This document shows, piece after piece, positions 23,083 through 57,008 of a DNA stretch of 64,000 bases (positions within the stretch are counted from its first letter, which is position 1; each line of letters opens with the position of its first letter). The translations under genes were made by a program, and so were the position numbers. Origin of the DNA: Pseudohaliea rubra DSM 19751 (GTDB taxonomy: Bacteria > Pseudomonadota > Gammaproteobacteria > Pseudomonadales > Halieaceae); assembly GCF_000764025.1 (NCBI RefSeq), contig NZ_KN234749.1, positions 1 through 64,000 on the forward strand, given 5' to 3'. The notes beneath the pieces are model-generated. The model was given only the letters and a program-made list of their open reading frames with translations, had not been told where the DNA came from and did not search any database.

Positions 23083-23981
23083 GCGCAGAGACCATTCGCA
23101 TCAACGAGGTTGGACTGCGCGATGGTTTGCAGAGCCAGCCCAGGCACCTGACCCTCGACGAGCGCGAGACCATGGCGCGCTCGCTCCTCGCAACGGGTAT
23201 CCGTCACTTCGAAGTCGGCAGCTTCGTGTCCCCGAAGGCGGTACCGCAAATGGCCGGCACCGATGAGCTGGTGGCGCGGCTGGCGCCGCCGCCCGGTGTC
23301 AGCTTCAGCGCGTTGGTGCCGAACATGAAAGGCTACGAACTGGCGCGGGCGGCCGGCGTTGAAACAGTCGCGGTGGTGATCTCGGCCACCGACACCATGA
23401 ATCGCAAGAACATCAACATGGGCCTCGACGAGACCCTGGCCGTGGCCGAGGCGGTGATCCGCCGGGGCCGGGAGGAGGGCGCTCGGGTTCAGGCCTACCT
23501 GGCCGTGGCCTGGGAGTGCCCCTTCGAGGGGCCGACGCCGGCGGCGGTGGTGCGTGATCAGGCGCGCCAGCTTGCGGCCTACGGCGCCGACGAGATCGTC
23601 ATCGCCGATACCATCGGCGCGGCCAATCCGGCGGCGGTGCGCGCGCTCATGAGCGACCTGGTTGCGGAACACGGCGCCGAGCGCCTTGCCTGCCACTTTC
23701 ACGATACGCGTGCGCTCGGTCTGGCCAACGTCTACGCCGCTGTTGAGAGCGGCATTCGCAGCTTTGACAGCTCCATCGGTGGTCTCGGCGGTTGCCCCTT
23801 TGCGCCGGGGGCCAAGGGCAATGTGGCCACCGAGGATGTCGTCATGCTCTGCGAAGCCATGGGCTTCGTTACGGGCGTCGACATGCCTGCGCTGCTCGCG
23901 GCGGTGGCTACCGTCAGCGACCTGATCGGCGCGCCCCAGGGCGGGCGCGCTCACTACTGGCTCAGCAACAACGCGGCCTAG
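23079..23981 (+). CDS. Hydroxymethylglutaryl-CoA lyase family protein
   Basis: DRE-TIM-type lyase of 300 residues. The catalytic RDGLQ is at 14-18, metal ligands HFH at 206-208, and the active-site loop GLGGCPFAPGAKGN with Cys239 at 235-248. The family cleaves 3-hydroxy-3-methylglutaryl-CoA or related 3-hydroxyacyl-CoAs into acetyl-CoA and a keto product. Translational coupling to CaiB suggests it cleaves the CoA ester made by that transferase, possibly not HMG-CoA itself. Followed 50 bases later by hyuA1. Confidence 0.88.
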   Translation: MSAETIRINEVGLRDGLQSQPRHLTLDERETMARSLLATGIRHFEVGSFVSPKAVPQMAGTDELVARLAPPPGVSFSALVPNMKGYELARAAGVETVAVVISATDTMNRKNINMGLDETLAVAEAVIRRGREEGARVQAYLAVAWECPFEGPTPAAVVRDQARQLAAYGADEIVIADTIGAANPAAVRALMSDLVAEHGAERLACHFHDTRALGLANVYAAVESGIRSFDSSIGGLGGCPFAPGAKGNVATEDVVMLCEAMGFVTGVDMPALLAAVATVSDLIGAPQGGRAHYWLSNNAA

Positions 23982-26105: not shown

Positions 26106-27974
26106 ATGCCTGCAAGAATTATCCAGGAAAACAGTGCGCCGCTGAACACCGTCGACGTCGACGGCGTGACCGTCGATCTGATCGAAAATGCCCTCAGGAA
26201 CGCCCGGGAGGAAATGGACGCGGTCCTCTTCCGCACGGCCATGTCTCCGGGCATCCGGGAGCAGGGCGACTGCTTCCCGATGATCGCCAATCGCGACGGC
26301 AAGATGGTCGTGGGCCAGTTCGGCTCCTTTATCGGCCCGTTCCTGTCGGCCTATGATGCGGATATCGAGGAAGGGGACATCATCCTCACCAACGACCCCT
26401 ACATGTGTAACGGCGCGGTGTCCCACCTGCCGGACTGGGTCGTGCTCGTGCCCGTATTCAAGGATGGCCGTCATATCGCCTGGAGTGCCATGTTCGGCCA
26501 CATGTCCGACAACGGCGGCATGGTGCCGGGGTCGATCCCGATCAAGGCGACGACCATCTACCAGGAAGGCATCCGCATCCCGCCGACCAAGCTGTACAAG
26601 AAGGGTGTACTGCAGGAGGACATCCTCGAACTCATTCTGCACAACGTGCGCATGCCGCAGTGGAACCGTTTCGATCTCAATGCGCTCGTCGCCGCCTGCA
26701 AGACCGCGGCCCGGCGCTGCGTGGAGATCGCCGAGCGCTTTGGCGACGATGTGCTCGCCACCACCATGGATGTCATGCTCCAGCGCAACTACGACGCCAT
26801 GAAACACATCATCGAGAACTTCGTACCGGAAGAGCCGCGGGAGTTCGAGGACTACCTCTGCGACGACGGCATGGGCATGGGTCCCTACCGCATCAAGTGC
26901 CGGCTCTGGCGCGAGGGCAGCAAAGCGATCTTCGACTTCGCGGGGACGGACCCGCAGGCCCAGAGCTCGGTCAACTTCTTCCTCAACGAGGACATGTTCA
27001 AGATGTTCTTCGGTTCCTTCACGATTAACGTGGTGGACCCGCAGATGGTGTTCAACGACGGTTTCTATGATCTCGTTGACGTGCGCATCCCCGAGGGCAC
27101 GCTGCTCAAGCCGAAGTACCCGGCGGCGCTCTCCGGCCGTACGCACGCCCTGGGCCGCATCTTCGATCTGCTCGGGGCGCTTCTCGGCATGGGTGCACCG
27201 GAGCAGATGCTCAACGCCGCTGGCTTCTCCGACTCGCCGCACCTGTTCTACTCCGGGTACCGCGATAACGGCGAGTGGTTCCAGCTCTTCCAGATCGGTT
27301 TCGGCGGCATCCCCGGCCGCCCCGTGGGCGACGGCCCTGACGGCCACAGCCTGTGGCCGGGCTTCACCAATGTACCGAACGAGTTCATTGAGTCCTACTT
27401 TCCGCTGCGCATCGAGACCTATGCCACGATCCCGGATTCCGGCGGCGCCGGCCTGCACCGCGGCGGCAATGGCCTGACCGTGGCCTATCGCTTCCTCGCT
27501 GACGGTGAGATCGGCATCCACGACGACCGCTGGCTTACCTACCCCTGGGGTGTGCTGGGTGGTGAGCCGGGGCTGCGCTCCACCAAGCGCCTGGAGCGTG
27601 TCGACGGTAGCGAGGAGTGGCTCGGCGCCAAGGCCGAGGGTATCAAGGTGAAGAAGGGCGACCTGCTCCACTTCAACACCTGGGGTGGCGGTGGCTGGGG
27701 GGATCCTTTCGAGCGTGCTCCGGAACTGGTGCGCCAGGATGTTGCCCGTCGCCTTGTCACCCGGGAGGGTGCGCGTCGCTACGGCGTCGTTATCGCCGCC
27801 GACGGCAGCGTGGACGCGGACGCGACGGAGAACCTGCGAGAGCAGCTGCGCGCCGAGCGCGGCGAGGTGCCGCTGTTCAACCGCGGCGGTTCCATTGAGG
27901 AGCTCAAGGCCCGCTGCCTCGAGGAGACACACCTCGAGCCCCCGGTGGACCCCAGCTTCCAGGGCGCGGCCTGA
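26106..27974 (+). CDS. Hydantoinase subunit B (HyuB-like), module 1
   Basis: Catalytic partner of HyuA, 622 residues. Family motifs include TNDPY near residue 97, SAMFGHMSD, DFAGTDPQ, the central SGRTHALGRIFD, and the glycine-rich GGGGWGDP near the C-terminus. HyuB subunits carry the metal centre and active site for opening cyclic amides such as hydantoins, oxoproline or caprolactam. AGGAGG lies just upstream of the ATG. It is followed 10 bases later by the cysteine amidohydrolase, as expected for hydrolysing the ureido acid released by ring opening. A paralogue is at 55.1 kb. Confidence 0.92.
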   Translation: MPARIIQENSAPLNTVDVDGVTVDLIENALRNAREEMDAVLFRTAMSPGIREQGDCFPMIANRDGKMVVGQFGSFIGPFLSAYDADIEEGDIILTNDPYMCNGAVSHLPDWVVLVPVFKDGRHIAWSAMFGHMSDNGGMVPGSIPIKATTIYQEGIRIPPTKLYKKGVLQEDILELILHNVRMPQWNRFDLNALVAACKTAARRCVEIAERFGDDVLATTMDVMLQRNYDAMKHIIENFVPEEPREFEDYLCDDGMGMGPYRIKCRLWREGSKAIFDFAGTDPQAQSSVNFFLNEDMFKMFFGSFTINVVDPQMVFNDGFYDLVDVRIPEGTLLKPKYPAALSGRTHALGRIFDLLGALLGMGAPEQMLNAAGFSDSPHLFYSGYRDNGEWFQLFQIGFGGIPGRPVGDGPDGHSLWPGFTNVPNEFIESYFPLRIETYATIPDSGGAGLHRGGNGLTVAYRFLADGEIGIHDDRWLTYPWGVLGGEPGLRSTKRLERVDGSEEWLGAKAEGIKVKKGDLLHFNTWGGGGWGDPFERAPELVRQDVARRLVTREGARRYGVVIAADGSVDADATENLREQLRAERGEVPLFNRGGSIEELKARCLEETHLEPPVDPSFQGAA

Positions 27975-30223: not shown

Positions 30224-32869
30224 ATGAAAGCAAAACACAAACACTTGGAGGCAGGCAGCACTGGCCGTTACTTCCCGTTAGCGACAACAAGAGGAAAACT
30301 ACTGATGAGCATTCCAGGAGTGAACGAGCGGCGGCCGGCGAGCAAGCCACGCCTTCTAACCGCGGCAATCTGCGCGATGGCATCCTCTTCCGGGGCGTTG
30401 TTGCTACCGGCGGCGGCTCACGCACAGCTCGAGGAGATTGTGGTGACCGCGCGGGCCCGTACCGAGTCTCTGCAGGATGTTCCCAGCACCGTGACGGCCT
30501 TCTCCACCGGCCAGATCGAAGACATGGGCATCGAGCGGGCTGAGGACTTCATCTCGCAGACGCCCGGTGTAAGCATGGTCAACTCGGTGGAAATCGGCGA
30601 CTCGTCGCTGTCCATCCGCGGCATGAACGGCGCCCGTGACGCCGAGACTAACTTCGCGCTGATCATCGATGGCATCCTCCATGTGAACACCTACGCGTTC
30701 AACCGCGAGTATGCCGACCTCGAACAGATTGAGATCCTGAAGGGCCCCCAGGGTGCGCTCTACGGCCGCTCAGCCGCGGCCGGTGCGGTTATTATGTCTA
30801 CCAAGCGGCCATCGCAGGAGGTGGAAGGCAAGGTGCGGGTCAGCTTTGCCGAGGACAATACCTACACCGGCCTTGCGACCGTCTCAGGACCTCTCAGCGA
30901 CACGGTCGCCGGTCGCTTGCAGGCGGATTTCCGCAGCAGCGACGGGTTCTACAGCAATAGCTTCCTGAACGATGACGTTGTCGATGCCGCAGAAAACTAC
31001 GCAGTGGCGGGTCGCCTTGTGTTTGATCCGAGCGACACGCTGTCCTTTGATACCAAGCTGCGCTACAGCAAGGCAGAGGCATCAGCTATTGCGTTCAATG
31101 CAGGGTTTGCGATCCCTTCCTTCCAGGCCTTCGGTACGCCCGGGTCGGAAGCCTTTTACCAGGATGTGAACGATCACGATTTCGTGTTTGCGGGCAACGT
31201 CGAGCCGATCAGTGAGCAGGAAGTAATCGAGTTCTCCATCAAGATGGATAAGCAGCTGGACTGGGGCGGTACGCTGACTGCCTGGGGTGCCTACAGCGAT
31301 AGTGAGGATACCTTCATCGCCGACGGGACCTCCGGCGCTTTCGGCTTCTATGCCGGCACTGATTCCTGCATCAATTCTCTCGCCAACCTGGCGCCGTCCT
31401 ACACGCCCGCTGTGCCTGGTGGCGTGACGCCCCTGCCGGCGCCGACCTTCATCTTCGGCTCCGGCCCTGGCGAGTCGGTGCTGCCGCCCTACAGCCCCAC
31501 CACCTGTGACGGCTACCAGTGGCAGGAGCGGATCCAGGAAGATTTCAGCTTCCAGGTTCAGCTGACTTCGGCGGAAGATCAGCAGCTGCGCTGGCAGGCC
31601 GGGGCCTATTACCTGAACATCGAGCGCCGGCAGGCGGTCGCCCAGGCGCGCGATCCGGGAGCAGAGTGGCCTGCGCGCTCCCAGCTGCCGGAGGCAATTT
31701 TCACGCCGCTGACCGATGCCATTGTCGATGACACCTTTGATACTGAAGTGTTCGCGGTATTCGGTTCCGTCAGCTATGACATCACGGATAGGCTGGAGCT
31801 GTCCCTGGCCGCCCGCTATGACCGGGAGGAGCGCGAGGTCTCCAACAACGTACCGTCCCCGGCCGACGGCAATCTGACCAGCTTCATTGATTTCTGCGGT
31901 GGTAACTGCACCCTGAACGGTGAACCGCTCGCCGGCTCGCCGCTGAACCCCGGTTTCGTCAACTTTGACGATTTCACCGTATCGCCGACCCTGCCGGACC
32001 GCAGTGAAACCTTCGACCAGGTCCAGCCCAAGATCAGCCTGCGCTGGGACGCCACCGATGCGACGACCATTTACGGCAGCTGGGGTGTGGGCTTCAAGGC
32101 CGGCGGCTTCCTCAACCAGGGTTCGACGGAGACCATTCAGTTCTATCTCGTCGATAACGGCGGGGCGGTAAATGCGCCTCCGGGCCTGTTCCGCGAGGAA
32201 ACCTCCAGCGCCTTTGAAGTGGGCTTCCGCTCGGACCTCTTCGATAACACGCTGCGACTCAACGGTGCGGTGTTCTACACCGAGGTCGATGACATGCAGT
32301 TCTTCGAGTTCTTTGTCGGACCCTTCGGTCTGCTGAGGACCGCATCGAACATCGACGAGGTGACGCTGCAGGGCTTTGAGCTCAGCGCTGCCTGGGCTAT
32401 GACCGACAACCTGCGCCTTGACCTGGGCTACTCCATGGTGGACGGCGAGATTGACGAGAACGCCCTGCGCCCCTACACCAAAGGGAATGAGGTGCCTAAC
32501 AACCCTGAGTTCACGGCCAATGCGGCGCTGCAGTACAACCAGCCGATCGGTGAGTTCGAGCTGTTCGGGCGCCTTGAGTACTCCTACCAGGGCGATACGT
32601 ACTACCACACAGTGCAGGACGATATCGTGCCGGCAACGCTCTTCGGCGGCCCGCCCGCCAACTACGACGTCACGCGGGTCGACGGCTATGGCCTGACCAA
32701 CCTGCGTCTCGGCGTGCGCACCAACCAGTGGAGCGTGACGGCCTTTGCGAGCAACCTCTTCGAAGAAGAGTTTATCCGCGAGGTCATCCTGGCGCCGGAG
32801 TTCGGTGGTGGTTTCATCAGCCCCGGAACGCTGCGGCGCGTGGGCGTGGAGCTTCAGTACAACTTCTGA
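30224..32869 (+). CDS. TonB-dependent outer-membrane receptor, first
   Basis: Gated outer-membrane porin powered by TonB-ExbBD, 881 residues. After a signal sequence ending LLLPAAAHAQ comes the TonB-box region LEEIVVTARARTES, the plug domain with LKGPQGALYGRSAAAGAV, and a 22-strand barrel ending in phenylalanine. The start at 30224 has a good AGGAG; an ATG at 30305 with GAGGAAA gives a shorter and more usual signal peptide. It follows the activator gene by 62 bases and precedes a strong terminator, so it is likely the last gene of module 1 and imports that module's substrate. Confidence 0.93.
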   Translation: MKAKHKHLEAGSTGRYFPLATTRGKLLMSIPGVNERRPASKPRLLTAAICAMASSSGALLLPAAAHAQLEEIVVTARARTESLQDVPSTVTAFSTGQIEDMGIERAEDFISQTPGVSMVNSVEIGDSSLSIRGMNGARDAETNFALIIDGILHVNTYAFNREYADLEQIEILKGPQGALYGRSAAAGAVIMSTKRPSQEVEGKVRVSFAEDNTYTGLATVSGPLSDTVAGRLQADFRSSDGFYSNSFLNDDVVDAAENYAVAGRLVFDPSDTLSFDTKLRYSKAEASAIAFNAGFAIPSFQAFGTPGSEAFYQDVNDHDFVFAGNVEPISEQEVIEFSIKMDKQLDWGGTLTAWGAYSDSEDTFIADGTSGAFGFYAGTDSCINSLANLAPSYTPAVPGGVTPLPAPTFIFGSGPGESVLPPYSPTTCDGYQWQERIQEDFSFQVQLTSAEDQQLRWQAGAYYLNIERRQAVAQARDPGAEWPARSQLPEAIFTPLTDAIVDDTFDTEVFAVFGSVSYDITDRLELSLAARYDREEREVSNNVPSPADGNLTSFIDFCGGNCTLNGEPLAGSPLNPGFVNFDDFTVSPTLPDRSETFDQVQPKISLRWDATDATTIYGSWGVGFKAGGFLNQGSTETIQFYLVDNGGAVNAPPGLFREETSSAFEVGFRSDLFDNTLRLNGAVFYTEVDDMQFFEFFVGPFGLLRTASNIDEVTLQGFELSAAWAMTDNLRLDLGYSMVDGEIDENALRPYTKGNEVPNNPEFTANAALQYNQPIGEFELFGRLEYSYQGDTYYHTVQDDIVPATLFGGPPANYDVTRVDGYGLTNLRLGVRTNQWSVTAFASNLFEEEFIREVILAPEFGGGFISPGTLRRVGVELQYNF

Positions 32870-32955: not shown

Positions 32956-33711
32956 CTAAAGGCTTATCGTGGTGCCTCCGTCGACCGCAAGCACCTGGCC
33001 GGTCAGATAGCGGGCCTTGTCAGACAGGAGAAAAACGGCGACGTCGGCGATATCTGCGGGGTCACCCACGCGGCCCAGGGGCACCGTGCCTGCGAACGCC
33101 TCGAGGCCTGCCTCTCCCAGGGAGTTCACAGGATCCAGGGTCTGCGCACTGCGGATAACGCCCGGAGCGATCCCGTTGACACGCACTTGAAAGGGCGCCA
33201 GTTCGAGTGCCGCTGCACGCACCAGCCCCGCCACGCCGCCTTTGCTTGAGGCATAGGGGATGTGCTCGGACCAGCCAAGGAGGGAGCCGACAATGGAGGA
33301 CAGGCAGACTACCGCGCCCTTCTGCTCGCGCTTCATGCCCGGCGCCGCAGCCCTGAGCACGCGCATCATTCCCTTGAGGTTCACGTCGAGCGTTTCGTCC
33401 CATTGCTCGTCGGTCAGCGTTGCCAGGGGCAGGGTCCTGGCAATCCCTGCGTTCAGTACCAGCGCGGAGAGCGCTCCGTAGTCTGCCTCCAGCGCTGCCA
33501 CCAGGTCGTTGGTAGCGGCGGAGTCGCTGACATCGAGATAGTGGTACTCGGCATCGCCACCATTGCCCCGGATGGCTGCCGCGCAGTCTTCACCCTCGTC
33601 GCGGAGCACATCGGTGACAATCACCCGGTAGCCCGCCTCCGCTAGCGCCTCGGCAGAGGCCTTGCCCAGTCCGATGCCTGCACCCGTTACCAGAGCCGTT
33701 CTTCTTTCCAT
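32956..33711 (-). CDS. SDR-family NAD(P)-dependent oxidoreductase, first
   Basis: Classical short-chain dehydrogenase of 251 residues. The cofactor motif TGAGIGLGK is near residue 9, NAG is at about residue 87, and the catalytic Ser-Tyr-Lys is in CLSSIVG and YASSKGG. It would oxidise or reduce a hydroxyl/carbonyl of an intermediate. It lies 78 bases downstream of a second SDR on the same strand, so the two probably form one operon. It converges on the TonB receptor gene. The substrate is unknown. Confidence 0.9.
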   Translation of the reverse strand: MERRTALVTGAGIGLGKASAEALAEAGYRVIVTDVLRDEGEDCAAAIRGNGGDAEYHYLDVSDSAATNDLVAALEADYGALSALVLNAGIARTLPLATLTDEQWDETLDVNLKGMMRVLRAAAPGMKREQKGAVVCLSSIVGSLLGWSEHIPYASSKGGVAGLVRAAALELAPFQVRVNGIAPGVIRSAQTLDPVNSLGEAGLEAFAGTVPLGRVGDPADIADVAVFLLSDKARYLTGQVLAVDGGTTISL

Positions 33712-33789: not shown

Positions 33790-34557
33790 CTAGAGAAATG
33801 CATCACCGCCATTGGGGCTCAGACACTGGCCGCGGAAGTGGGCCGCCGCGTCGCTGGCCAGAAACAGGTAGGCACCGACGATATCGTCAACCTCGGCCAG
33901 GCGACCGGCGGGTATGCTCCCGCGGATGGCAGAGATCACCTCGTCAGGCACATCCGCCAGCATCGGCGTCATGGTGGCCCCCGGCGCAACGCAGTTCGCC
34001 GTGACCTCGCGGTCCCCGATCTCGAGCGCCAGGCTGCGGGTGAAAGAGAGAATCGCGCCCTTTGCGGCCGTGTAGTGCGCGAAGCCCGGCGCGCCGATGT
34101 AGGCGAGCTGGGAAGCGGTGTTGATGATGCGCCCGCTGTTTTGCGCATAGAACAGCGGCAGCGCCTTCCGCGTGCAGAGGAAGGTGCCAAGCAGGTGTAC
34201 ATCCATCACCCGCTGGAAATGCTCGACCGTGAGCGCTTCAATCGGTGCGCTGTGGGCAATCCCCGCGTTGTTGACCAGGATATCCAGGCGCTCTTCCCGC
34301 TGCGCGATCTGCGCGAACATGGCATCGACCTGGTCTTCTCTGGAGACATCGGCCTCGACGCAGCTGGCACTACCGCCGGTTTCCTCGATCCCGGCGACGA
34401 CCGCTGCGGCGTCGTCGTAGCACGACGGCCCCGGGTAATTGACGAAAACCCGGGCGCCAGAGGCCGCAAAGGCCCGCGCGACTTCGGCACCGATACCGGA
34501 GGTTGCGCCCGTAACCAGAGCGACCTGTCCTGTCAGGTCAACGGATAAACTGCCCAT
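33790..34557 (-). CDS. SDR-family oxidoreductase, second
   Basis: Classical short-chain dehydrogenase of 255 residues with TGATSGIGAEVARAFA at the N-terminus, VNNAGIAHS, and the catalytic Tyr-Lys in HYTAAKGA. AAGGAT precedes its ATG. It is divergent from the methyltransferase gene across 168 bases. Paired SDRs in catabolic islands often act on successive hydroxyl intermediates, but no substrate clue is visible in the sequence. Confidence 0.9.
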   Translation of the reverse strand: MGSLSVDLTGQVALVTGATSGIGAEVARAFAASGARVFVNYPGPSCYDDAAAVVAGIEETGGSASCVEADVSREDQVDAMFAQIAQREERLDILVNNAGIAHSAPIEALTVEHFQRVMDVHLLGTFLCTRKALPLFYAQNSGRIINTASQLAYIGAPGFAHYTAAKGAILSFTRSLALEIGDREVTANCVAPGATMTPMLADVPDEVISAIRGSIPAGRLAEVDDIVGAYLFLASDAAAHFRGQCLSPNGGDAFL

Positions 34558-34647: not shown

Positions 34648-34676
34648 TTTACGTTGCGACAGCCCTGGGTTATAGT
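34648..34676 (+). promoter_or_regulatory. Candidate sigma-70 promoter for the methyltransferase/RutA-like operon
   Basis: TTTACG (34648-34653) and TATAGT (34671-34676) are separated by 17 bases, about 50 bases before the methyltransferase ATG. A nearby TGG...TTGCA at 34596-34611 resembles sigma-54 but its GG-to-GC spacing is 11 and was not accepted. Confidence 0.5.
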
Positions 34677-34725
34677 CAAGCAGTTGTTCGCTTTAACCGC
34701 TTCAGCGCAAGTGAGGAGTTTCCCG

Positions 34726-35883
34726 ATGCCCGCGGCCTACAAAGAACAAATGCGACACAGCGCTCTCCCCGAGACTACCCACGATGAACTGGCACGACAG
34801 CATTTCGTGCGCTCTTTCAAGGAGCACCTGGTGCATCAGGTGCACCCCGGTCTCGCGACGGCCTACGAGAAGCGGGCAAAGCCGAGCTTTGAAGCTACGC
34901 ATCAGCGCGCGCCGGAAACGATCCAGGAGGTCGCTTCGGTGATGAAGCAGGACAGTCATTACCAGGTGTGGAGTTCCCTGCTGCGAACCAGCCAGGAGAT
35001 GATGTGGTCGTCGGCGCAGCTCCCCGTCGAGCGGTCCCTGTCGTCCTTGATCGCCAGGGCGCGCAAGCGTTGCTCCACCGGGTCACTGACGCTGGATCCT
35101 AAGCTACCGATCCCGGCCTACCACACCGCGGTCGATATTCACTGCCAGCCCGGTGGCTACCACACCGAGTACACGGCGGATGACGTTGCCCAGGGTGCGA
35201 TCTACGATCGGGCCGTCTACCTCTACGCGATGGGGCAGATGGGCGAGAACAACGCTGACATGGGCGACAGCACCATCAATTGGCTGAAGGCCAACTATCC
35301 GGATTTCTCGCCGGCGAAAATCCTGGATATGGGCTGCTCCGTCGGGCACAGCACGCTGCCTTATGCCAGCAGTTTTCCCGCAGCGGAGGTGCATGCAATA
35401 GACGTTGCTGCACCGATGTTGCGCTACGCGCACGCCCGGGCAGCAGCGATGGGCTTTCCTGTTCACTTCTCTCAGCAGAATGCAGAGGCGACAAGCTACG
35501 AGGACAATAGCTTCGACCTGGTGGTGTCCCACATTCTGCTGCACGAAACTTCCTCGGCGGCGATCAAGAACATCATTGCCGAATGCCACCGGGTGCTGAA
35601 GCCCGGGGGCCTGATGCTCCATGTCGAGACGCCCCCCTACGAGGGCATGTCCCCCTTTGATACCTTCCTTTTTGACTGGGACAGCGAGAACAACAACGAG
35701 CCCTTCTGGCGTAAGAGTCACCAGCTGGATCTCGACGGCCTCGCCCGCGATGCGGGTTTTGATAACCCCGTGATCAAGGTGATGGCACCCAGCGCCTTCC
35801 AGGAAACGCAGCGGTCCATGACGTTCCAGGGTGGTGACTTCGGCGGCGGTGGCGTCTGGTTCATCTACGGATGCCAGAAGTGA
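34726..35883 (+). CDS. Class I SAM-dependent methyltransferase with extra N-terminal region
   Basis: 385-residue protein. The C-terminal half is a SAM-binding Rossmann fold with motif I ILDMGCSVGHST near residues 199-210, followed by IDVAAPML and RVLKPGGLMLHVE. The first 190 residues are not a domain I recognise; they contain YHTAVDIHCQPGGYH. The start at 34726 follows GAGGAG. The next gene overlaps by 13 bases and then comes the RutA-like monooxygenase, so methylation may be part of the same pathway, for example N- or O-methylation of an intermediate. Function beyond methyl transfer is unknown. Confidence 0.85.
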   Translation: MPAAYKEQMRHSALPETTHDELARQHFVRSFKEHLVHQVHPGLATAYEKRAKPSFEATHQRAPETIQEVASVMKQDSHYQVWSSLLRTSQEMMWSSAQLPVERSLSSLIARARKRCSTGSLTLDPKLPIPAYHTAVDIHCQPGGYHTEYTADDVAQGAIYDRAVYLYAMGQMGENNADMGDSTINWLKANYPDFSPAKILDMGCSVGHSTLPYASSFPAAEVHAIDVAAPMLRYAHARAAAMGFPVHFSQQNAEATSYEDNSFDLVVSHILLHETSSAAIKNIIAECHRVLKPGGLMLHVETPPYEGMSPFDTFLFDWDSENNNEPFWRKSHQLDLDGLARDAGFDNPVIKVMAPSAFQETQRSMTFQGGDFGGGGVWFIYGCQK

Positions 35884-36236
35884 GCAGCGCCGAGCCGAAG
35901 CTCAAGCGCCGGGCCAAGGGAAAGAGGCCGTTTTACTTCTCCGACCCCGATATTGACAGGTTGCTGTCCATGCTTATGGCCCTGGCCGGTGAGCTCTCGG
36001 TAACCCGTGACCGGTTGGACACCCTGGAGCGTGTCGCCCAGGCAAAGGGTCTTCTCTCCCAGGCTGATATCGAAGCCTTTGAGCTGGATGAGCAGGCCTT
36101 GAGCGACCGCGCCGCGAGACACCAGGTCCTCTTCAAGGAAGTTACGCGCATTATTTCTGCGGAGCTTGAGGGGCTGGATGACAGCGATGCCACCGAATAC
36201 GCCGAGGTCGTTGCACAGGTCGAGCGGGACGACTGA
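35871..36236 (+). CDS. Small hypothetical protein between methyltransferase and RutA-like gene
   Basis: 121 residues, not recognised. It opens with a basic stretch (KLKRRAKGKR) and then appears mostly helical, with heptad-like leucines around residues 28-60 and an acidic C-terminus. There is no signal peptide, membrane segment or cysteine motif. It overlaps the end of the methyltransferase gene. A GTG at 35880 that overlaps the stop (GTGA) is an alternative start. Its fixed position between two enzymes suggests a partner or assembly subunit, but this is inference. Confidence 0.7.
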   Translation: MPEVSSAEPKLKRRAKGKRPFYFSDPDIDRLLSMLMALAGELSVTRDRLDTLERVAQAKGLLSQADIEAFELDEQALSDRAARHQVLFKEVTRIISAELEGLDDSDATEYAEVVAQVERDD

Positions 36237-36370: not shown

Positions 36371-37429
36371 ATGAAGTTCGGGATTTTTCTGCCCAACGGA
36401 AGTAACGGTTACATTCCCTCGGCCGGTAGTCCGGTCTATGAGCCCACCTTCGAGCACAACCTTGCCATTTCCCGGGAAGCAGAGCGGCAGGGCCTTGATT
36501 TCGTGCTGTCGATGATGAAGTTCCGGGGCTTCGGTGGCGATACCGGCTACTGGGACAGCTGCCTTGAGTCGTTCACGCTGATGGCGGCGCTGGCGGCGGC
36601 AACGGATAAGGTCGGCCTCTTTCCGTCCATTTCAATTCTGAGTCAGCACCCTGCCGTCGTGGCGCGGATGATTGCCACCATCGACGACATCTCCGGCGGT
36701 CGCTGCGGCCTGAACATCGTGACCGGCTGGAACAAGCCCGAGTACAGCCAGATGGGTATGTGGCCTGGGGATGACTATTACGGGCGGCGCTATGAATATG
36801 CCGACGAGTACGTCACTGTCCTCAAGGGGCTCTGGCAGGGCGGCGGCTTCACTCATCACGGGGAGTTTTTCCAGCTCGACGATTGCATCGTCAATCCGAC
36901 GCCGCGGGACGCCATACCGCTGGTCAGCGCGGGTCAGTCTGACGCCGGCAGAGCTTTTGTGGCCAAGCATGCAGACCATCAGTTTGTGCTGACGGACAAG
37001 TCCAGCCTTGCCGCCAGCGTCAAGGACGTGCGGGAAAAGGCAAAAGCCTACGATCGGACCGTGGGGATTTACGCGCTGTTTCACATGATCATCGGCGATA
37101 GCGATGCCCAGGCCCAGGAGCAGGTCGATCAGATCGTCGAGCAGGCCGACCGCGGTGCCATTGCCAACATCATCGGCAGCGCGACCCTCGACACCAACAA
37201 GGGGGGCACCAGTGATACGCTCAAAGCGGCCCTGGAAAAGAGCGTGGAAGAAGGCAACATGGCTTTTATGGGTATCCCCGTGATTCACGGCAGCGAAGAG
37301 ACCGTGGCCAGAAAGATCGAGGCTATTGCCGCGGAAACCGATGTCGATGGCTTGCTTTTCAGCTGGCCGGACTTCGTCGATGGCTGCAGCCGTTTCGGGC
37401 AGAAGATCAAGCCGCTATTACGTCTTTAA
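36371..37429 (+). CDS. RutA-like flavin-dependent (LLM class) monooxygenase
   Basis: 352 residues, clearly related to pyrimidine monooxygenase RutA. Matching segments include GFGG followed by LESFTLMAALAA, VARMIATIDDISGGRCGLN, IVTGWNKPEYSQMGMWPGDD and SAGQSDAGRAF, which I recall in nearly the same form in E. coli RutA. RutA uses FMNH2 and O2 to break a ring C-N amide bond of uracil, and its relatives use a flavin-N5-peroxide. No flavin reductase (RutF) is nearby. AAGGAG at 36357-36362 fixes the start. Two hydantoinase modules with RutB-like hydrolases on the same island make a heterocyclic amide a likely substrate. It may not be uracil. Confidence 0.88.
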   Translation: MKFGIFLPNGSNGYIPSAGSPVYEPTFEHNLAISREAERQGLDFVLSMMKFRGFGGDTGYWDSCLESFTLMAALAAATDKVGLFPSISILSQHPAVVARMIATIDDISGGRCGLNIVTGWNKPEYSQMGMWPGDDYYGRRYEYADEYVTVLKGLWQGGGFTHHGEFFQLDDCIVNPTPRDAIPLVSAGQSDAGRAFVAKHADHQFVLTDKSSLAASVKDVREKAKAYDRTVGIYALFHMIIGDSDAQAQEQVDQIVEQADRGAIANIIGSATLDTNKGGTSDTLKAALEKSVEEGNMAFMGIPVIHGSEETVARKIEAIAAETDVDGLLFSWPDFVDGCSRFGQKIKPLLRL

Positions 37430-37489: not shown

Positions 37490-38371
37490 ATGAGTGACGA
37501 GCCGATTGTCTTTATCAATGGTGAATACCTGCCCCTTTCCGCGGCGCGGGTGTCTCCCGTTGACCAGGGGTTTCTGCTGGGTGACGGTGTCTTTGACGTC
37601 GTCTCGGCCTGGAAGGGCAGAATCTTCAAGCTGGAGGCGCACCTCGACCGCTTCTTCGATTCAATCCAGGCGGCCCGCCTCAATCATGCCATGGACCGCG
37701 ATGCCTGGAAGGAAGCCATCATTGAGACCACGCGCCGCAACAGGCTCGCAGACGCGTCAATCCGCTTTATTGTGACCCGAGGCGAGCCCGATGGTGTGGT
37801 CGCGGACCCGAGGGTCTTTTCACCAACCTGTATCGTATGGGCCGCGCCTTATGTTTTTCTGGCCGATGAAGAGAAGCGGCGCGGCGGTATCCGACTCATG
37901 ATCAGCGCTACGCGAGGCTTCCCCGCCGACACCCTGGACCCTCGCTACAAGTGCCTTGACCGGCTCCACTCGCAGCTCATTCGCCTGGAAGCCCTTGAGG
38001 CCGGTTACGATGACGCCCTGTGGCTCGATCATTCCGGGCATGTCTCTGAGTCCGCCGCGAGCAACCTGTTCATCGTCAAGAAGGGCGTCCTGTACACGCC
38101 CGCCGCCGGAATTCTCCGGGGCATTACCCGCGATACGGTGCTGGAGCTCGCTTCGGAACTTGCCATTCCCTGGCAGGAGCGCAAGCTCAGTGCCTTTGAT
38201 GTCTATGTGGCGGACGAGGTTTTCACCTGCAGCACTGCCGGTGGAGTCCTCCCGGTAAGGGAAGTCGCGGGGCGGACAATTCAGGGTGCAACGCCGGGCC
38301 CGATCACCCGGGCCCTTGATAGCGCCTACTGGGAAATGCGCGAAGCGGGCCGCTACGGTACGGTCCTGTAG
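37490..38371 (+). CDS. Class IV PLP aminotransferase (D-amino acid / branched-chain type)
   Basis: 293 residues of the fold-type IV family that includes D-alanine aminotransferase, branched-chain aminotransferase and aminodeoxychorismate lyase. The PLP lysine is Lys154 in LDPRYKCLDRL, and VSESAASNLF holds the cofactor-binding glutamate region. It starts typically with INGEYLPLSAARVSPVDQG. CTGGAG precedes the ATG. It lies 60 bases after the RutA-like gene and is likely the last gene of that operon. It could deaminate an amino acid released from ring opening; stereospecificity cannot be assigned by eye. Confidence 0.88.
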   Translation: MSDEPIVFINGEYLPLSAARVSPVDQGFLLGDGVFDVVSAWKGRIFKLEAHLDRFFDSIQAARLNHAMDRDAWKEAIIETTRRNRLADASIRFIVTRGEPDGVVADPRVFSPTCIVWAAPYVFLADEEKRRGGIRLMISATRGFPADTLDPRYKCLDRLHSQLIRLEALEAGYDDALWLDHSGHVSESAASNLFIVKKGVLYTPAAGILRGITRDTVLELASELAIPWQERKLSAFDVYVADEVFTCSTAGGVLPVREVAGRTIQGATPGPITRALDSAYWEMREAGRYGTVL

Positions 38372-38413: not shown

Positions 38414-39808
38414 TCAGCAGGTCTTTGCCAGGCGATCCAGGGCGTAGGAAAAGGCATCCATCGCAACGTCGATTTCGCTCTCGCTTATCGTGAAAGGCGG
38501 CGCGCATTTGATGGTATTCGGCACGAAGCCACCGAGGAATACACCCTTTTCAGCGCAGGCACCTGACACTATAGCGTTGGGGTACTGGCTCAGGTCGCCG
38601 CTGAAGTTGGTGTAGCGGTCCGCTTCCACGAGGGGTCTGCCATCGCTGCCGACAAGATCGACGGCGTAGTAGAGCCCCGCGCCGGCGATACGGCCGATGA
38701 CAGTGTGTTTCCTTGCCAGGGCCTCCAGGCGGTCGCGGAGGTAGGCGCCGCGGGCATGTACCGTCGCCAGGATGTCGTTATCCAGCATATAGCTGAGCGT
38801 GCCGACGATGCTGGCGCAGACTAGCGGGTGTCCATCCCAGGTGCTGCCGCTCCACCACCGTGCCCCTTCGAGGAAGGCGCCGATAGCCTCGTTGACGACC
38901 ATGCCCCCGGAGGGAAGGGACGATCCGTTGATGCCCTTGCCGACAATCATGATGTCGGGCTCCACGCCCTCGGTCAGCTGGTACCCGAACCACTTGCCCA
39001 GCCTGCCGGCACCGCAAAGCACCTCATCGTCGATCCACAGGATGCCGTAGCGGCGCAGGAGATCGAAGAGGCCGCGATAGTAGTCCGCGTGTGGCATGAG
39101 GCCCGCGGCCCCGAACATTGGCTCGGTAATGATTGCCGCGATGTTTTCCGGGCCGCAGGCTCGGATCAGTTGTTCCGTGGCGACCAGGGAAGGTAACTCG
39201 CCCTCGGCCGGGAAGTCCGTGGGTTCTGGCGGCGGAATGGGAATGTAGCCAGGCGCCGGCACCCCCGGTATATCCCGCACCTCGGAGAAACCCTGCTGCC
39301 CCTGCAGTGTCAAATTACCGCGGTAGCCACGCAGGAAAGTCGATCCGCTGGCCATCCCGTGAAAGGAGTGGGCCTGGGTCATGATCAGCGGTTTTCCGGT
39401 GAACAGCCGAGCGGCCTGTACGGCGTTCTCCACGGCCTCGGTGCCGGAGGTGAGAAAGCGTACCCGGGAGGCCCAGGACGCCGGCGCTCCCAGGATGTCT
39501 TCTACGAGGAGCTTTGCAGCGCGGGCCCGGTACTCGTTCGCCATGCCGAAGAACACATGACCGTAGCGCTCCATGGCTTCCTTGATCGCGTCATGGGGTG
39601 CTGCGTGCCGGTGCCCCAGGGAGTCCGACACCAGCTGGCTCTGGAAATCCAGCAGGCGAGCACCACTGCTCAGGGTGATGTAATTGCCGTCTACGCGCTC
39701 GACGCCGGTGAAACTGTGCTCTGCCGCCGCCATGGTGTTGTGCAGGTAGTAGCGGCGATCCCAGTTTTCGATGGCATCCCAATCGGGGGCCTTGTGTTCC
39801 TCAGCCAT
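38414..39808 (-). CDS. Class III PLP aminotransferase (omega-aminotransferase type)
   Basis: 464 residues of fold-type I, subgroup II aminotransferases, which act on omega-amino acids, beta-alanine or GABA. SGTEAVENAVQAARLFTGK, the PLP aspartate region WIDDEV (about 260) and the Schiff-base lysine in VGKGINGSSLPSGG (Lys291) are intact. The ATG at 39808 was chosen for the GGAGGTTTC just upstream; longer in-frame starts lack an RBS. It converges on the class IV aminotransferase gene. Such enzymes typically follow reductive or hydrolytic pyrimidine and lactam degradation, where they remove the amino group of beta-alanine-like products. Confidence 0.88.
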   Translation of the reverse strand: MAEEHKAPDWDAIENWDRRYYLHNTMAAAEHSFTGVERVDGNYITLSSGARLLDFQSQLVSDSLGHRHAAPHDAIKEAMERYGHVFFGMANEYRARAAKLLVEDILGAPASWASRVRFLTSGTEAVENAVQAARLFTGKPLIMTQAHSFHGMASGSTFLRGYRGNLTLQGQQGFSEVRDIPGVPAPGYIPIPPPEPTDFPAEGELPSLVATEQLIRACGPENIAAIITEPMFGAAGLMPHADYYRGLFDLLRRYGILWIDDEVLCGAGRLGKWFGYQLTEGVEPDIMIVGKGINGSSLPSGGMVVNEAIGAFLEGARWWSGSTWDGHPLVCASIVGTLSYMLDNDILATVHARGAYLRDRLEALARKHTVIGRIAGAGLYYAVDLVGSDGRPLVEADRYTNFSGDLSQYPNAIVSGACAEKGVFLGGFVPNTIKCAPPFTISESEIDVAMDAFSYALDRLAKTC

Positions 39809-39990
39809 GAAACCTCCAGCGACGGATCCGTCGCGGTCCAGCGTATCATGGATGTTAACGTCCCTGGGGCCTCGGGCACTGTTAACGCAGCGTAGACGGA
39901 TGCGGGGGCGAACCCCCACCAAGCGAATATCGTTAAGCGCCTGATCGCTTTGGCTTCGTCGGATGTATGGCGAGTATCATCACCGCCGGC

Positions 39991-48293: not shown

Positions 48294-48328
48294 TGAAAAA
48301 TGGTTTCAGCTTGAAAACCCGTTTTCAA
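48294..48328. promoter_or_regulatory. Candidate upstream activator site 2 for the sigma-54 activator
   Basis: Overlapping dyads: TGAAAAATGGTTTCA (48294-48308), the shared core TTTCA-GCT-TGAAA (48304-48316), and the perfect 18-base dyad TTGAAAACCCGTTTTCAA (48311-48328). The shared core is centred about 103 bases upstream of the -12 GC of the sigma-54 promoter. Its right end overlaps the last codons of the CaiB gene. Confidence 0.6.
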
Positions 48329-49458
48329 TCTTTACTGTCATAGTCCCAGCCCCGGTCGGCGGCTTCCCCGGCGAATTCGTTGAGCGCCGGTGCCTGCGTT
48401 CGAACCCTGCCCGGCTCGCGCTGGAACTTGAGTGGCGTGCCGGGGAGTTCGACGCCCCTGTCGTCCTCGAAGAGCATGCCGCGAGCCCGCGCGTGCGGAT
48501 GATCGAAGGCCTCAGCCATGTCCAGCACCGGCGCCCAACTCACCTCAACATCGGCCAGGAACGCGCACCATTCCTCAAAGGATTTGCCGGCGAAGATGGT
48601 TCGCAGCTCGCTGATCAGCCGCTGCTGTCCCGGACCCGGGTCCTCCCGGGCCAGCTCCAGGAGTTCGCCGCGGCCGAGGGCAGACAGCAGCGCCTCGGCG
48701 AATTTCAGCTCCCGTCCGGTCAGGGCGATATGGCGGCCGTCAGCGGTCTCGTAGAGATTGTAGAACGCCGAACCGCCGATGGAGCGGTGCGTGCGCGTGG
48801 TCGGTGCGGTGCGGTCGTGAAAAACCGGGCCGGACAGATGGGCCGTCCAGGCCATGAGCGCGTCGTACATGTTGGCGTCGATGATGTCACCGACGCCCGT
48901 GGTCTCGCGTCGGTACAGGGCCATCAGGATGGCGCTAAGACCGGTGAGGGCCGAGGCCATATCTGCCGACGGCATGCCGGGCACTACGGGTACACCGTCT
49001 CCATTGTCGTTAAGGGCGAGGAAGCCGGTGTAGGCCTGCGCGCCCATATCGTGGCTGGCCTTCACCGAAAGCGGTCCGGCCTGACCGAAGGCCGAGAGAG
49101 AGCAGTAAATGAGTCGCGGGTTCAGGGCGCAGAGGGTTTCAGCATCAACCCCCAGCTTCCTGACGACCCCGGCGCGAAATCCCTCGATGAAGATGTCTGC
49201 TTCTTTTGCCAGCTCAAGGAGCGTCGCGCGATCGACGTCGGTCTTGAGATCAAGCTCCAGGCTGCGCTTACCGCGATGTGTGTTGCGATACCAGATCGAC
49301 TCGCCGCTTTCGTCGAAGGGGCCGAAGCTGCGGCTTGGCTCGCCGCCCGGGGGCTCGACGCGGATCACCTGCGCACCGTGGTCGACCATGAGCTGGGTGA
49401 TCACTGGTCCCGGCAGGAACATGCTGAGATCCAGGACCTTCACGCCATCGAGTTTCAT
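48325..49458 (-). CDS. CaiB/BaiF family protein, alpha-methylacyl-CoA racemase-like (second)
   Basis: 377 residues starting MKLDGVKVLDLSMFLPGP. It has a His-Asp pair (136-137, KASHDMG) and an aspartate in PSADMASALTG (Asp166). The His...Asp pairing is typical of alpha-methylacyl-CoA racemases, while transferases use the aspartate alone. So it may epimerise a 2-methylacyl-CoA rather than move CoA. The ATG at 49458 follows AGGAG. It is the last gene of the minus-strand run GntR-amidase-CaiB-CaiB. A racemase would fit a branched acyl-CoA feeding the acyl-CoA dehydrogenase at 59.9 kb. Confidence 0.85.
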   Translation of the reverse strand: MKLDGVKVLDLSMFLPGPVITQLMVDHGAQVIRVEPPGGEPSRSFGPFDESGESIWYRNTHRGKRSLELDLKTDVDRATLLELAKEADIFIEGFRAGVVRKLGVDAETLCALNPRLIYCSLSAFGQAGPLSVKASHDMGAQAYTGFLALNDNGDGVPVVPGMPSADMASALTGLSAILMALYRRETTGVGDIIDANMYDALMAWTAHLSGPVFHDRTAPTTRTHRSIGGSAFYNLYETADGRHIALTGRELKFAEALLSALGRGELLELAREDPGPGQQRLISELRTIFAGKSFEEWCAFLADVEVSWAPVLDMAEAFDHPHARARGMLFEDDRGVELPGTPLKFQREPGRVRTQAPALNEFAGEAADRGWDYDSKD

Positions 49459-49503
49459 CAATGCTGACTCCTGTTTCGTTCGCCTGCACTGTCCGTCCGG
49501 GCC

Positions 49504-50658
49504 TCAGGTTTTGGCCTTGTGGCCCTGGCGAAGGCTGTCGCCGTGCTCATCAAGTGCCGGCGCCGCACGCTGCGCCGGGCGCTGGCCGTTGATCTTCAGA
49601 GGGTTTGCAAAGAAGCGCAGTTCCCGGCCGGAGGGGTGAGAAACAGGCTTGATCATCTCTGCCTCGGCGAGGAAGGGATTGTCCACCGCCTCGTCGAGTG
49701 GTCGCACCGGCGCCGCTGGAATCTTGCCCTTGAGGATTTCCATCCACTCGCTGGAGGTCCGGGTGCCAAGCGCCTCGTCGAGGATGGTACCCAGTGTCGA
49801 CCGGTGCTGCTGTCTCGCCGCCATCGTTGCAAAGCGTGGATCCTCGGCCAGCTCGCCGCGCTCAATCAGCTGTACCAGAAGTTCCCAGAAATTCTGGTTC
49901 ATGCAGCACAGATAGATCCAGCCGTCAGCTGTCCTGTACAGCTGTACCGGCGTGGAGGAGGGGTGCGCGGCCCGCGGCATCCGTGGGGTGACGATACCCT
50001 CGTTGAGGTACCAGGTGCCCTGATAGGCGAGCTGGTGTACGGCGGTATCGAAAAGCGATGCGTCGATATCCATGCCGGTGCCGCTGCGGCTGGCCGAGTG
50101 GATGGCGCTCATGACGCCGAAGGCCAGCATCATGCCGGTCATGTAGTCGATCATCGACAGGCCGATACGCGTGGGCTCCGCCTCGGGGTCACCGGTCAGC
50201 GCCATGATGCCGGCCTCGGCCTGCATGAGAAAATCGTAGCCCGGCCAGTCTGCCCGGGAACTGTCGCGGCCGTAGGCCGAGATGTGGCCGCAGACAATGG
50301 CCGGATTGATGGCCTGCAGCGATGCGTAGTCGATCCCGAGCTTTGCCGGCAGGCTGCCGCGCAGGTTGTTGATGACTGCATCGCAGTCAACGACCAGACT
50401 CTCGAAGAGGGCCCGGTCATCCGGGTCTTTGAGGTTCAGGACGAGGCTTTTCTTGTTCAGGTTGAAGCACTGGTAGTAGAGGCTGTCGCCTTCCCCCAGT
50501 GTCTGTGGCCCGGTCTGCCGTGCGTAGTCGCCGGCGGCGCTTTCGACCTTGATGACCTCGGCACCGAAATCAGCGAGAAACATCGTGGCGTAAGGCGCGG
50601 CACCGAACTGTTCAAAGCTGATGATGCGCAGGCCTTCGAGGGGTTTGATGGCCGTCAT
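49504..50658 (-). CDS. CaiB/BaiF CoA-transferase (third)
   Basis: 384 residues with PLEGLRIISFEQFGAAPYATMFLADFGAEVIKVE. The predicted nucleophile is Asp171 in GLSMIDYMTGM, and the transferase-type GYDFLMQAEAG segment precedes it. It lacks the His-Asp pair of its neighbour, so it is more likely a true CoA-transferase, perhaps succinate- or dicarboxylate-dependent. It is preceded by AGAGGA and lies 84 bases after the amidase gene. Confidence 0.87.
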   Translation of the reverse strand: MTAIKPLEGLRIISFEQFGAAPYATMFLADFGAEVIKVESAAGDYARQTGPQTLGEGDSLYYQCFNLNKKSLVLNLKDPDDRALFESLVVDCDAVINNLRGSLPAKLGIDYASLQAINPAIVCGHISAYGRDSSRADWPGYDFLMQAEAGIMALTGDPEAEPTRIGLSMIDYMTGMMLAFGVMSAIHSASRSGTGMDIDASLFDTAVHQLAYQGTWYLNEGIVTPRMPRAAHPSSTPVQLYRTADGWIYLCCMNQNFWELLVQLIERGELAEDPRFATMAARQQHRSTLGTILDEALGTRTSSEWMEILKGKIPAAPVRPLDEAVDNPFLAEAEMIKPVSHPSGRELRFFANPLKINGQRPAQRAAPALDEHGDSLRQGHKAKT

Positions 50659-52852: not shown

Positions 52853-52903
52853 TATCACGGGGCAACTGCCACCCCGCCAGGGGGCAGAGGGGTTATATCA
52901 TAC

Positions 52904-52960: not shown

Positions 52961-53004
52961 AGATGCTCTTCCGATCATCATGCCGCAGCCGGTGGGGGTG
53001 TGTA

Positions 53005-57006: not shown

Positions 57007-57008
57007 CC

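Follow-up and report, generated by a model that had tools for sequence, protein, structure and literature searches.

A RutA-sister luciferase-like monooxygenase encoded in a putative amide-catabolic island

Background

The flavin monooxygenase RutA cleaves the N3-C4 bond of uracil. It serves as the model for flavin-N5 oxygenation, and the only natural substrates named for it in the cited passages are uracil and thymine. According to passages of PMC10005588 and PMC7662398, dioxygen in RutA is held by T105 and N134 and surrounded by L65, V136 and F224 (E. coli 382-residue numbering). The T105S variant retains about 80% activity while the other changes tested at T105, N134 and V136 abolish it (excerpts of PMC7662398). 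The dioxygen motif was published as F/L-T/S-NxV-A-F/L/Y in PMC8234197, whose passages give no residue number for the A and state that the motif is not fully conserved in SfnG. A sister group that keeps the RutA oxygen pocket in other gene company offers a way to search for a second natural substrate and for the residues that set the substrate.

The gene and its neighbourhood

The gene described here, LLM, is located at 36371..37429 (+) of the window, which is the whole 64,000-nucleotide stretch of Pseudohaliea rubra DSM 19751 DNA that was analysed. It starts with ATG, has GGAG close upstream and encodes 352 residues. The left of the window carries housekeeping genes up to dnaE at 19.4 kb, followed by a catabolic island with two hydantoinase/oxoprolinase pairs, three family III CoA-transferases, an amidase, two isochorismatase-fold hydrolases, a MaoC hydratase and an acyl-CoA dehydrogenase. 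Around LLM the order is a TonB receptor, two short-chain dehydrogenases (SDRs) on the other strand, a methyltransferase, a 121-aa protein, LLM, a class IV aminotransferase and a convergent class III aminotransferase. The main features are as follows.

23079..23981, +, HMG-CoA-lyase-like lyase (HMGL); homologue between LLM and HydA in locus L066
23792..26092, +, HydA1; true start probably later than the start of the open reading frame
26106..27974, +, HydB1; type widespread in the family, mostly without LLM
30224..32869, +, TonB-dependent receptor of a conserved block; named by eye, no family-library scan
32956..33711, -, short-chain dehydrogenase 1 (SDR1); named by eye, no family-library scan; conserved block with MT and the small protein
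33790..34557, -, short-chain dehydrogenase 2; named by eye, no family-library scan; same conserved block
34654..35883, +, class I SAM methyltransferase (MT); homologues suggest a start ATG at 34726, residue 25 of the open reading frame
35871..36236, +, 121-aa helical protein; no Pfam or NCBIfam match
36371..37429, +, LLM, RutA-sister luciferase-like flavin monooxygenase, 352 aa; from family models, tree and fold
37490..38371, +, class IV aminotransferase (AT4); 60 bp after LLM, 88% identity to PDB 7p3t from L. syltensis
38414..39922, -, class III aminotransferase (AT3); nearest solved relatives 5g09/5g2p, "transaminase"
48325..49461, -, family III CoA-transferase; clear Pfam and sub-cut-off NCBIfam match
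49504..50658, -, family III CoA-transferase (CoAT3b); homologue adjoins the HydAB-LLM operon in relatives
50743..52068, -, amidase; family match
52097..52858, -, GntR-family regulator; family match
52963..55059, +, HydA2, hydantoinase/oxoprolinase A; family match
55078..57006, +, HydB2, hydantoinase B; family match
57003..57671, +, isochorismatase-fold hydrolase; same superfamily as RutB and biuret hydrolase
57685..58491, +, alpha/beta hydrolase; weakly RutD-like (66.4 bits, cut-off 238.5)
59268..59834, +, MaoC hydratase, RipB/Ich-like (240.8 bits, cut-off 340)
59885..61060, +, acyl-CoA dehydrogenase; family match

The MaoC and CoA-transferase names come from NCBIfam matches below cut-off alongside clear Pfam ones. 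The small protein at 35871-36236 represents a conserved helical family that accompanies the methyltransferase, and its predicted model is poor (pLDDT 62.5).

Pfam places LLM in Bac_luciferase (E 2.3e-55). Its top NCBIfam model is RutA TIGR03612 with 359.8 bits (E 1.9e-107), below the equivalog cut-off of 498.3, and E. coli RutA is also the best match among solved structures by sequence (303.8 bits). The second-best model was SfnG TIGR04021 (169.8 bits, cut-off 382.95), the NtaA/DmoA model TIGR03860 reached 151.1 bits (cut-off 279.7) and the alkanesulfonate models scored far below the RutA model. No second LLM-like gene was matched in the genome at E 0.001. The open reading frame and the RutA likeness reported by the first-pass annotation were thus confirmed, as were the neighbouring methyltransferase, small protein of no known family and class IV aminotransferase. 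The "long near-identical segments" it saw in common with E. coli RutA were overstated: identity is 43% (151/355) and the longest identical run, LESFTLMA, has 8 residues.

A sister group of RutA

The best 80 of 199 relatives divided into 38 loci (53-89% identical) and 42 RutA loci (42-46%). The 38-locus group, within those best 80, spans marine Gammaproteobacteria, Alphaproteobacteria, Pseudonocardia, Myxococcota and Binatia. A tree of 103 proteins was built from 37 LLM-group rows (the window protein and 36 of the 38, as L070 and L073 fell below 300 aa and were dropped), 44 RutA rows and 22 other luciferase-like rows, whose families were not scanned and which hold no alkane, NTA, DszA or HcbA1 representatives. 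The LLM group was recovered beside RutA with modest support of 74/83 (a single group in 74% of bootstrap trees). The RutA rows form one group at 100/89 with the window protein outside, and both groups jointly split from the 22 other rows at 100/99. L063, L066 and L005 form long branches and their placement is unsure. Identity between the two groups was 36-47% (median 42.7) while the medians inside them were 63.2 for the LLM group and 72.2 for RutA. LLM falls outside RutA by the TIGR03612 cut-off, by the RutA clade and by the rutB-G/rutR company, and it is a member of a separate sister group of RutA and not RutA itself.

Thirteen of 140 family genomes carry LLM: the window genome and 12 of one other genus, among them L. 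syltensis and HTCC2080. We take L. syltensis NOR5-1B and HTCC2080 to be cultured strains. Between the window and L. syltensis, LLM is 89% identical and dnaE (15926-19408) 65-66%, and LLM was matched at neither E 1e-40 nor E 1e-70 in a genome of the window's own genus (dnaE 92-93%). For these reasons a recent horizontal transfer between the window lineage and L. syltensis was considered. It is not claimed because HydB1 (26106-27974), which neighbours dnaE in both genomes, also reaches 85-86% identity. For these three genes, gene relationships do not match those of the genera.

The predicted structure of LLM (pLDDT 92.5) is closest to the RutA crystal structures, with Z 45 and an rmsd of 1.4 A over 327-328 residues at 44% identity. 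Lower matches were SfnG (Z 43.2), RcaE (38.4), BdsA (38.3) and HcbA1 (35.3), and among solved structures the alkane monooxygenase LadA (Z 36.4) and the NTA monooxygenase (Z 34.2) also stand below RutA. The structure alignment covered the window protein together with 20 of the 38 LLM-group and 5 of the 42 RutA loci.

The equivalents of RutA T105, N134, L65, V136 and F224 in the window protein are S86, N115, L46, V117 and F205. RutA positions L65, N134, V136, W139 and F224 are invariant in all 37 LLM-group rows and the T105 position holds serine in 31 and threonine in 6. Since RutA T105S keeps most of its activity, the natural serine of the LLM group is compatible with N5 chemistry. The dioxygen motif, as far as the published passages give it, is present as L46, S86, N115-I116-V117 and F205 with the A of the motif left unassigned.

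Besides the dioxygen-pocket residues, several positions were observed to be nearly fixed in different states (at least 35 of 37 LLM-group rows against at least 42 of 44 RutA rows): I28>N9, N30>S11, W33>Y14, I68>M49, E78>G59, A104>P85, P112>H93 and F350>W332 (RutA>LLM). These differences, which include the N-terminal loop residues I28, N30 and W33, suggest a substrate other than that of RutA. At I28, N30 and P112 the LLM group has the same state as every one of the 22 other luciferase-like rows, and the change at these positions may therefore be on the RutA side. Glu292 of RutA was not used as a marker because it is not conserved even among the RutA rows.

Absence of rut genes

Searches of the whole window with E. 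coli RutB-RutG and RutR found nothing (E 1e-10, 60% coverage), RutF, RutC and RutG having already been reported as missing beside the gene. A genome-wide search with the RutB, RutF and RutG models gave only scores below cut-off in this 98.8%-complete genome: 65.3 of 254.75 bits for RutF, 36.6 of 377.95 for RutB and 62.9 of 758.65 for RutG. The RutG model is a weak test since it exceeded its cut-off in none of 14 control genomes, E. coli included (RutF in 1, RutB in 2).

Under the same thresholds (E 1e-10, 60% coverage) the 42 RutA loci contain rutB in 36, rutC in 36, rutD in 35, rutF in 35, rutR in 31, rutE in 23 and rutG in 18, while rutC-G and rutR occur in the flanks of none of the 38 LLM-group loci (best 80 of 199 relatives). 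A RutB-like protein, 27-32% identical, is found in 8 of the 38. We also considered LLM as a RutA orthologue in a broken-up rut operon; this was rejected on the cut-off, the tree, the nearly fixed residues and the missing rut genes (RutB-RutG and RutR in the window, the RutB, RutF and RutG models in the genome). We noticed a second RutA-like group outside rut operons, in loci L077, L081, L083, L085, L092 and L100 (Belnapia, Paeniroseomonas and another Acetobacteraceae genome), where RutA is 64-70% identical to E. coli RutA and the flanks hold no rutB-G or rutR match.

Gene company of the sister group

Neighbours were counted by tblastn (E 1e-20, 40% coverage) in flanks of unequal length around the 38 LLM-group loci, window excluded, with the 42 RutA loci as control (best 80 of 199 relatives). 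HydA was found in 16 of 38 against 0 of 42 and HydB in 14 against 0. The HydA enrichment has a Fisher p of 8e-7 with related loci counted as independent; the 16 loci are related, and about three groups carry the signal (Halieaceae, other marine Gammaproteobacteria and sphingomonads). MT occurs in 16/38 vs 0/42 and the small protein in 15/38 vs 0/42; 14 of the 15 loci with the small protein also have MT, and the fifteenth, L042, ends there. SDR1 (20/38 vs 1/42) and CoAT3b (15/38 vs 0/42) are counted at family level, as paralogues of CoA-transferases and SDRs cross-match. AT3 occurs in 7/38 vs 1/42, the sole control match (L095) being 27% identical. Lower counts, each against 0/42, were obtained for the isochorismatase at 57003 (11/38), an FAD oxidase (7/38), a molybdenum hydroxylase (6/38), an AllA-like protein (5/38) and a PuuE-allantoinase-like protein (3/38). 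The amidase at 50743 shows the opposite trend (0/38 vs 6/42).

The gene orders differ among the loci. In the Luminiphilus relatives L037, L039, L041, L042, L072 and L073 the order is HydA-HydB-LLM with a HydB-LLM gap of 54-79 bp. In L044, L046, L047 and L051 the order is LLM, small protein and MT reversed, then HydA-HydB. Sphingomonad L066 has LLM-HMGL-HydA-HydB, and Novosphingobium L057 has LLM-MT-small protein on one strand and HMGL-HydA-HydB on the opposite strand 5-10 kb away. These differing arrangements speak for several separate origins of the LLM-HydAB association.

Other loci show further partners. In the Alphaproteobacteria L059-L062 a molybdenum hydroxylase, with an AllA-like gene in three of the four, is followed by AT3-LLM. 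Sphingomonads L055 and L058 have the order FAD oxidase-LLM-hydrolase-MT, the hydrolase being of the alpha/beta type. The Binatia loci carry another luciferase-like gene besides LLM, together with an acyl-CoA-dehydrogenase-fold gene and, in three of four, HpaB, and no amidases; L048 and L049 carry HpaB with MmgE-, CitE- and sulfotransferase-like genes. The cupin-, GST-, sulfotransferase-, CitE-, MmgE- and cyclase-like names were given by eye or taken from plasmid annotation.

Several observations on single loci may be added. L068:6045-11140 (Binatia) holds a full and a shorter (615 bp) RutA-sister copy close together, with a longer luciferase-like gene and the acyl-CoA-dehydrogenase-fold gene. 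At L059:2883-3929 (-) lies another luciferase-like gene with 41% identity to the window LLM, about 6 kb from the RutA-sister gene and divergent from the molybdenum hydroxylase. Plasmid pSI-1 of Arthrobacter sp. AK-1 (L120) encodes a 47.6% identical relative of LLM near a cyclase-family protein, a permease, a carbon-nitrogen hydrolase, two flavin reductases and a fumarylacetoacetate hydrolase family gene. On plasmid pJE1 (L122:14947-24730), a single cluster holds MT, a 119-aa small protein, two FAD oxidases and HydA-HydB, and Sphingobium plasmid pTomTYG65b has a stretch laid out in the same way. A search of the pJE1 stretch gave no LLM match. As MT sits with HydAB there without LLM, the methyltransferase may belong to the hydantoinase module. 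Literature searches yielded nothing useful on pSI-1 or pJE1, and among the papers listed when hydantoinase or Luminiphilus was paired with RutA or with luciferase-like enzymes, none describes the gene.

Candidate hydantoinase partners

Three HydB types were distinguished in the 140 family genomes by identity to HydB1 (79-89%, 64-66% and 56-57%). The HydB1 type (79-89%) occurs in about 45 genomes, and besides the window only L. syltensis among them has LLM. The 64-66% type adjoins LLM in several genomes and is also present in at least 15 genomes with no LLM match. The HydB2 type (56-57%) is found, by identity class, only in the window and L. syltensis. HydB1 would be the obvious partner as part of the nearest pair, but this was weakened by its relatives being widespread mostly without LLM. 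We take HydAB2, which co-occurs with LLM in the window and L. syltensis, as the likelier partner module in this genome.

L. syltensis keeps the second cluster of the window (two CoA-transferases, amidase, GntR, HydA2, HydB2, isochorismatase, hydrolase, MaoC and acyl-CoA dehydrogenase) in the same order at 64-89% identity. There LLM-AT4-AT3, the TonB-SDR-SDR-MT-small protein block and the HydAB2 cluster are three separate loci; in the window all of these lie within 30.2-61.1 kb. HydAB1 has an HMGL gene alongside, as in the LLM loci L057, L058 and L066. In the HydB tree both window copies group with sphingomonad copies (L057 and L066 among them) at 98/99 and not with the LLM-linked Halieaceae copies. 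Because of the HMGL link and this tree, HydAB1 is still a candidate beside HydAB2. A HydB copy adjoining LLM in another family genome (G156 contig 29:61823-63700) was seen to have 11 in-frame stops, from decay or assembly error.

Proposed function and alternatives

We propose that LLM is an FMNH2-dependent oxygenase that applies RutA-type flavin-N5 chemistry to an amide-type or related carbonyl compound other than uracil, within a putative catabolic island that also encodes ATP-dependent cyclic amidases and CoA enzymes; to this reading as a whole we give about an even chance. LLM would be the oxygenase of a two-component FMN system whose reductase is a separate protein. The reduced FMN would bind in the TIM barrel with O2 kept at the re face by L46, S86, N115, V117 and F205, and the N5-(hydro)peroxide would attack a carbonyl carbon of the substrate and break the adjoining bond. 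The substrate is most likely a cyclic amide, imide or ureide. In the presumed order of steps, ATP-dependent HydAB would act next, along with the isochorismatase-fold and alpha/beta hydrolases, the CoA-transferase, the MaoC hydratase and the acyl-CoA dehydrogenase, and the fragments would reach central metabolism through CoA-dependent steps on the carbon skeleton; an amine or carbonyl intermediate would fall to the two transaminases. Candidate reductases are the one RutF-like protein of the genome (65.3 bits) and, for the relative on pSI-1, the two flavin reductases near it.

RutA-type chemistry, as put forward in the first-pass annotation, is supported by the pocket residues, the tree and the fold, and its link to hydantoinase modules is seen directly in the relatives (HydA-HydB-LLM in six loci, LLM-HMGL-HydA-HydB in L066). 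That annotation was right in its direction; the heterocyclic substrate it suggested, and the methylation of that substrate by the upstream enzyme, are hypothetical. Neither of the findings it had named as contrary appeared: the NtaA/DmoA and alkanesulfonate models and the LadA and NTA folds all score below RutA, and RutB, RutF and RutG (a weak test for the last) gave nothing above cut-off elsewhere in the genome. Neighbours of the isochorismatase-fold, PuuE-like, AllA-like and carbon-nitrogen hydrolase kinds suggest that C-N bonds are the target. Against the amide reading, 22 of the 38 loci have no HydA in the flank, several being short (best 80 of 199 relatives), and HydAB lacks LLM in many genomes, about 44 of them with the HydB1 type and several of them incomplete MAGs. 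LLM, the MT block and HydAB2 are also apart in L. syltensis, and the company in Binatia consists not of amidases but of other flavin-enzyme-like genes and, in three of four loci, HpaB; in L048/L049 it is HpaB with the MmgE-, CitE- and sulfotransferase-like genes.

The main alternative comes from the transaminases. AT4 of L. syltensis (L036:11120-12001) is identical to PDB 7p3t over 293/293 residues, and the window AT4 is 88% identical to it; the gene starts 60 bp after LLM in both genomes, which share the order LLM-AT4-AT3. We take the solved relatives of AT3, 5g09 and 5g2p, to be (S)-selective. AT3 is co-located with LLM in L. syltensis and six alphaproteobacterial loci, and an AT4-like gene (38%) adjoins LLM in a myxococcotal MAG. 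A passage of the review PMC12029284 states that Konia and coworkers (2021) engineered the L. syltensis (R)-omega-transaminase as a biocatalyst; given the sequence identity, 7p3t is probably this enzyme. Its gene's position 60 bp behind a RutA-like one gives a clue to the native role of the crystallised 7p3t.

With AT4 and AT3 as neighbours an amine or carbonyl intermediate is likely, and this is the main support for the view that the substrate of the same flavin-N5 peroxide is a ketone or ester, attacked in a Baeyer-Villiger-like reaction or some other C-C/C-X cleavage during chiral amine/ketone catabolism. Transaminases and SDRs would make the ketone, LLM would oxygenate it, the alpha/beta hydrolase would split the ester and HydAB would be acetophenone-carboxylase-like. 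An (R)-amine transaminase orthologue as the next gene, the AT4-like gene of the MAG, class III transaminases (nearest solved relative 5g09) in 7 of 38 loci, SDRs in 20 of 38 and the order FAD oxidase-LLM-alpha/beta hydrolase-MT in L055 and L058 all agree with it. The HydA proteins do match acetophenone carboxylase gamma (316.6, 286.4 and 294.2 for HydA1, HydA2 and the LLM-linked HTCC2080 HydA), but they score higher with N-methylhydantoinase, their top model (476.7, 464.8 and 450), and with 5-oxoprolinase (410.5, 406 and 408), which favours amide hydrolysis by these proteins. The match of the FAD oxidase to solved vanillyl-alcohol-oxidase-type enzymes is confined to about residues 15-295, and the C-N bond neighbours named above also speak against a ketone. 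We regard this alternative as less likely than the amide reading but as a serious rival to it.

Another alternative is that LLM is a divergent RutA still opening uracil or thymine, with the other steps done by unrelated, scattered enzymes of the island (the isochorismatase, the weakly RutD-like hydrolase, and transaminases for the C3 fragment). RutA is indeed the closest characterised enzyme by sequence and fold, and proteins of the RutB superfamily and of weak RutD likeness are in the window. The score under the RutA cut-off, the position outside the RutA clade, the nearly fixed differences including the I28/N30/W33 loop and the RutB and RutF models staying below cut-off in the genome (RutG being a weak test) make it improbable. 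An ordinary SfnG/SsuD/NtaA-type enzyme oxidising a sulfone, sulfonate, aminopolycarboxylate or alkane shares the superfamily, with SfnG second by model score and fold, yet we consider it very improbable given half the RutA score, the missed SfnG and NtaA/DmoA cut-offs and the 100/99 split from the 22 other rows, their families not scanned.

Returning to the amide reading, a more specific version of it is a long shot. The LLM group would be a separate flavin-N5 oxygenase family with a methyl-substituted cyclic imide or lactam as the substrate whose ring it opens; a maleimide- or pyrrolinone-type ring released when tetrapyrroles are broken down is one example. HydAB and the isochorismatase-fold amidase would finish the ring, giving a branched C5 dicarboxylate which the CoA-transferase, the RipB/Ich-like MaoC hydratase and the lyase would process to central metabolites. 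If true, this would be an aerobic route for a marine nitrogen heterocycle, one that to our knowledge is assigned to no known gene cluster.

Comparison with known systems

RutA (TIGR03612; PDB 6sgg, 6sgl and 5wan) is the described enzyme most like LLM in fold (Z 45), identity (43%), dioxygen-pocket residues and length. It differs in that LLM belongs to a sister group, scores under the equivalog cut-off, shows nearly fixed differences that include the N-terminal loop and lacks a rut operon. The dimethylsulfone monooxygenase SfnG (TIGR04021) shares the superfamily and fold (Z 43.2), but its identity in the fold alignment is 27% and its model score far lower. LLM has the dioxygen motif of the group C N5-peroxide monooxygenases (RutA, DszA, CmoJ and DmoA), as far as the published passages give it. 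For the DszA/HcbA1 enzymes the fold scores are lower (BdsA Z 38.3 and HcbA1 35.3 against 45 for RutA).

The two HydAB pairs of the window and the LLM-linked pairs of the relatives belong to the ATP-dependent hydantoinase/oxoprolinase HyuA-HyuB family, whose members include N-methylhydantoinase, 5-oxoprolinase and the acetophenone and acetone carboxylases. We know of no RutA-like oxygenase in the characterised HyuA-HyuB systems, and none of the papers listed in the literature searches links the two. The window AT4 is the 88% identical orthologue of the L. syltensis (R)-amine transaminase with the same 60 bp spacing after LLM. The L. syltensis enzyme is described as an engineered biocatalyst in the review passage (PMC12029284), and the LLM neighbourhood gives this crystallised transaminase a candidate native pathway.
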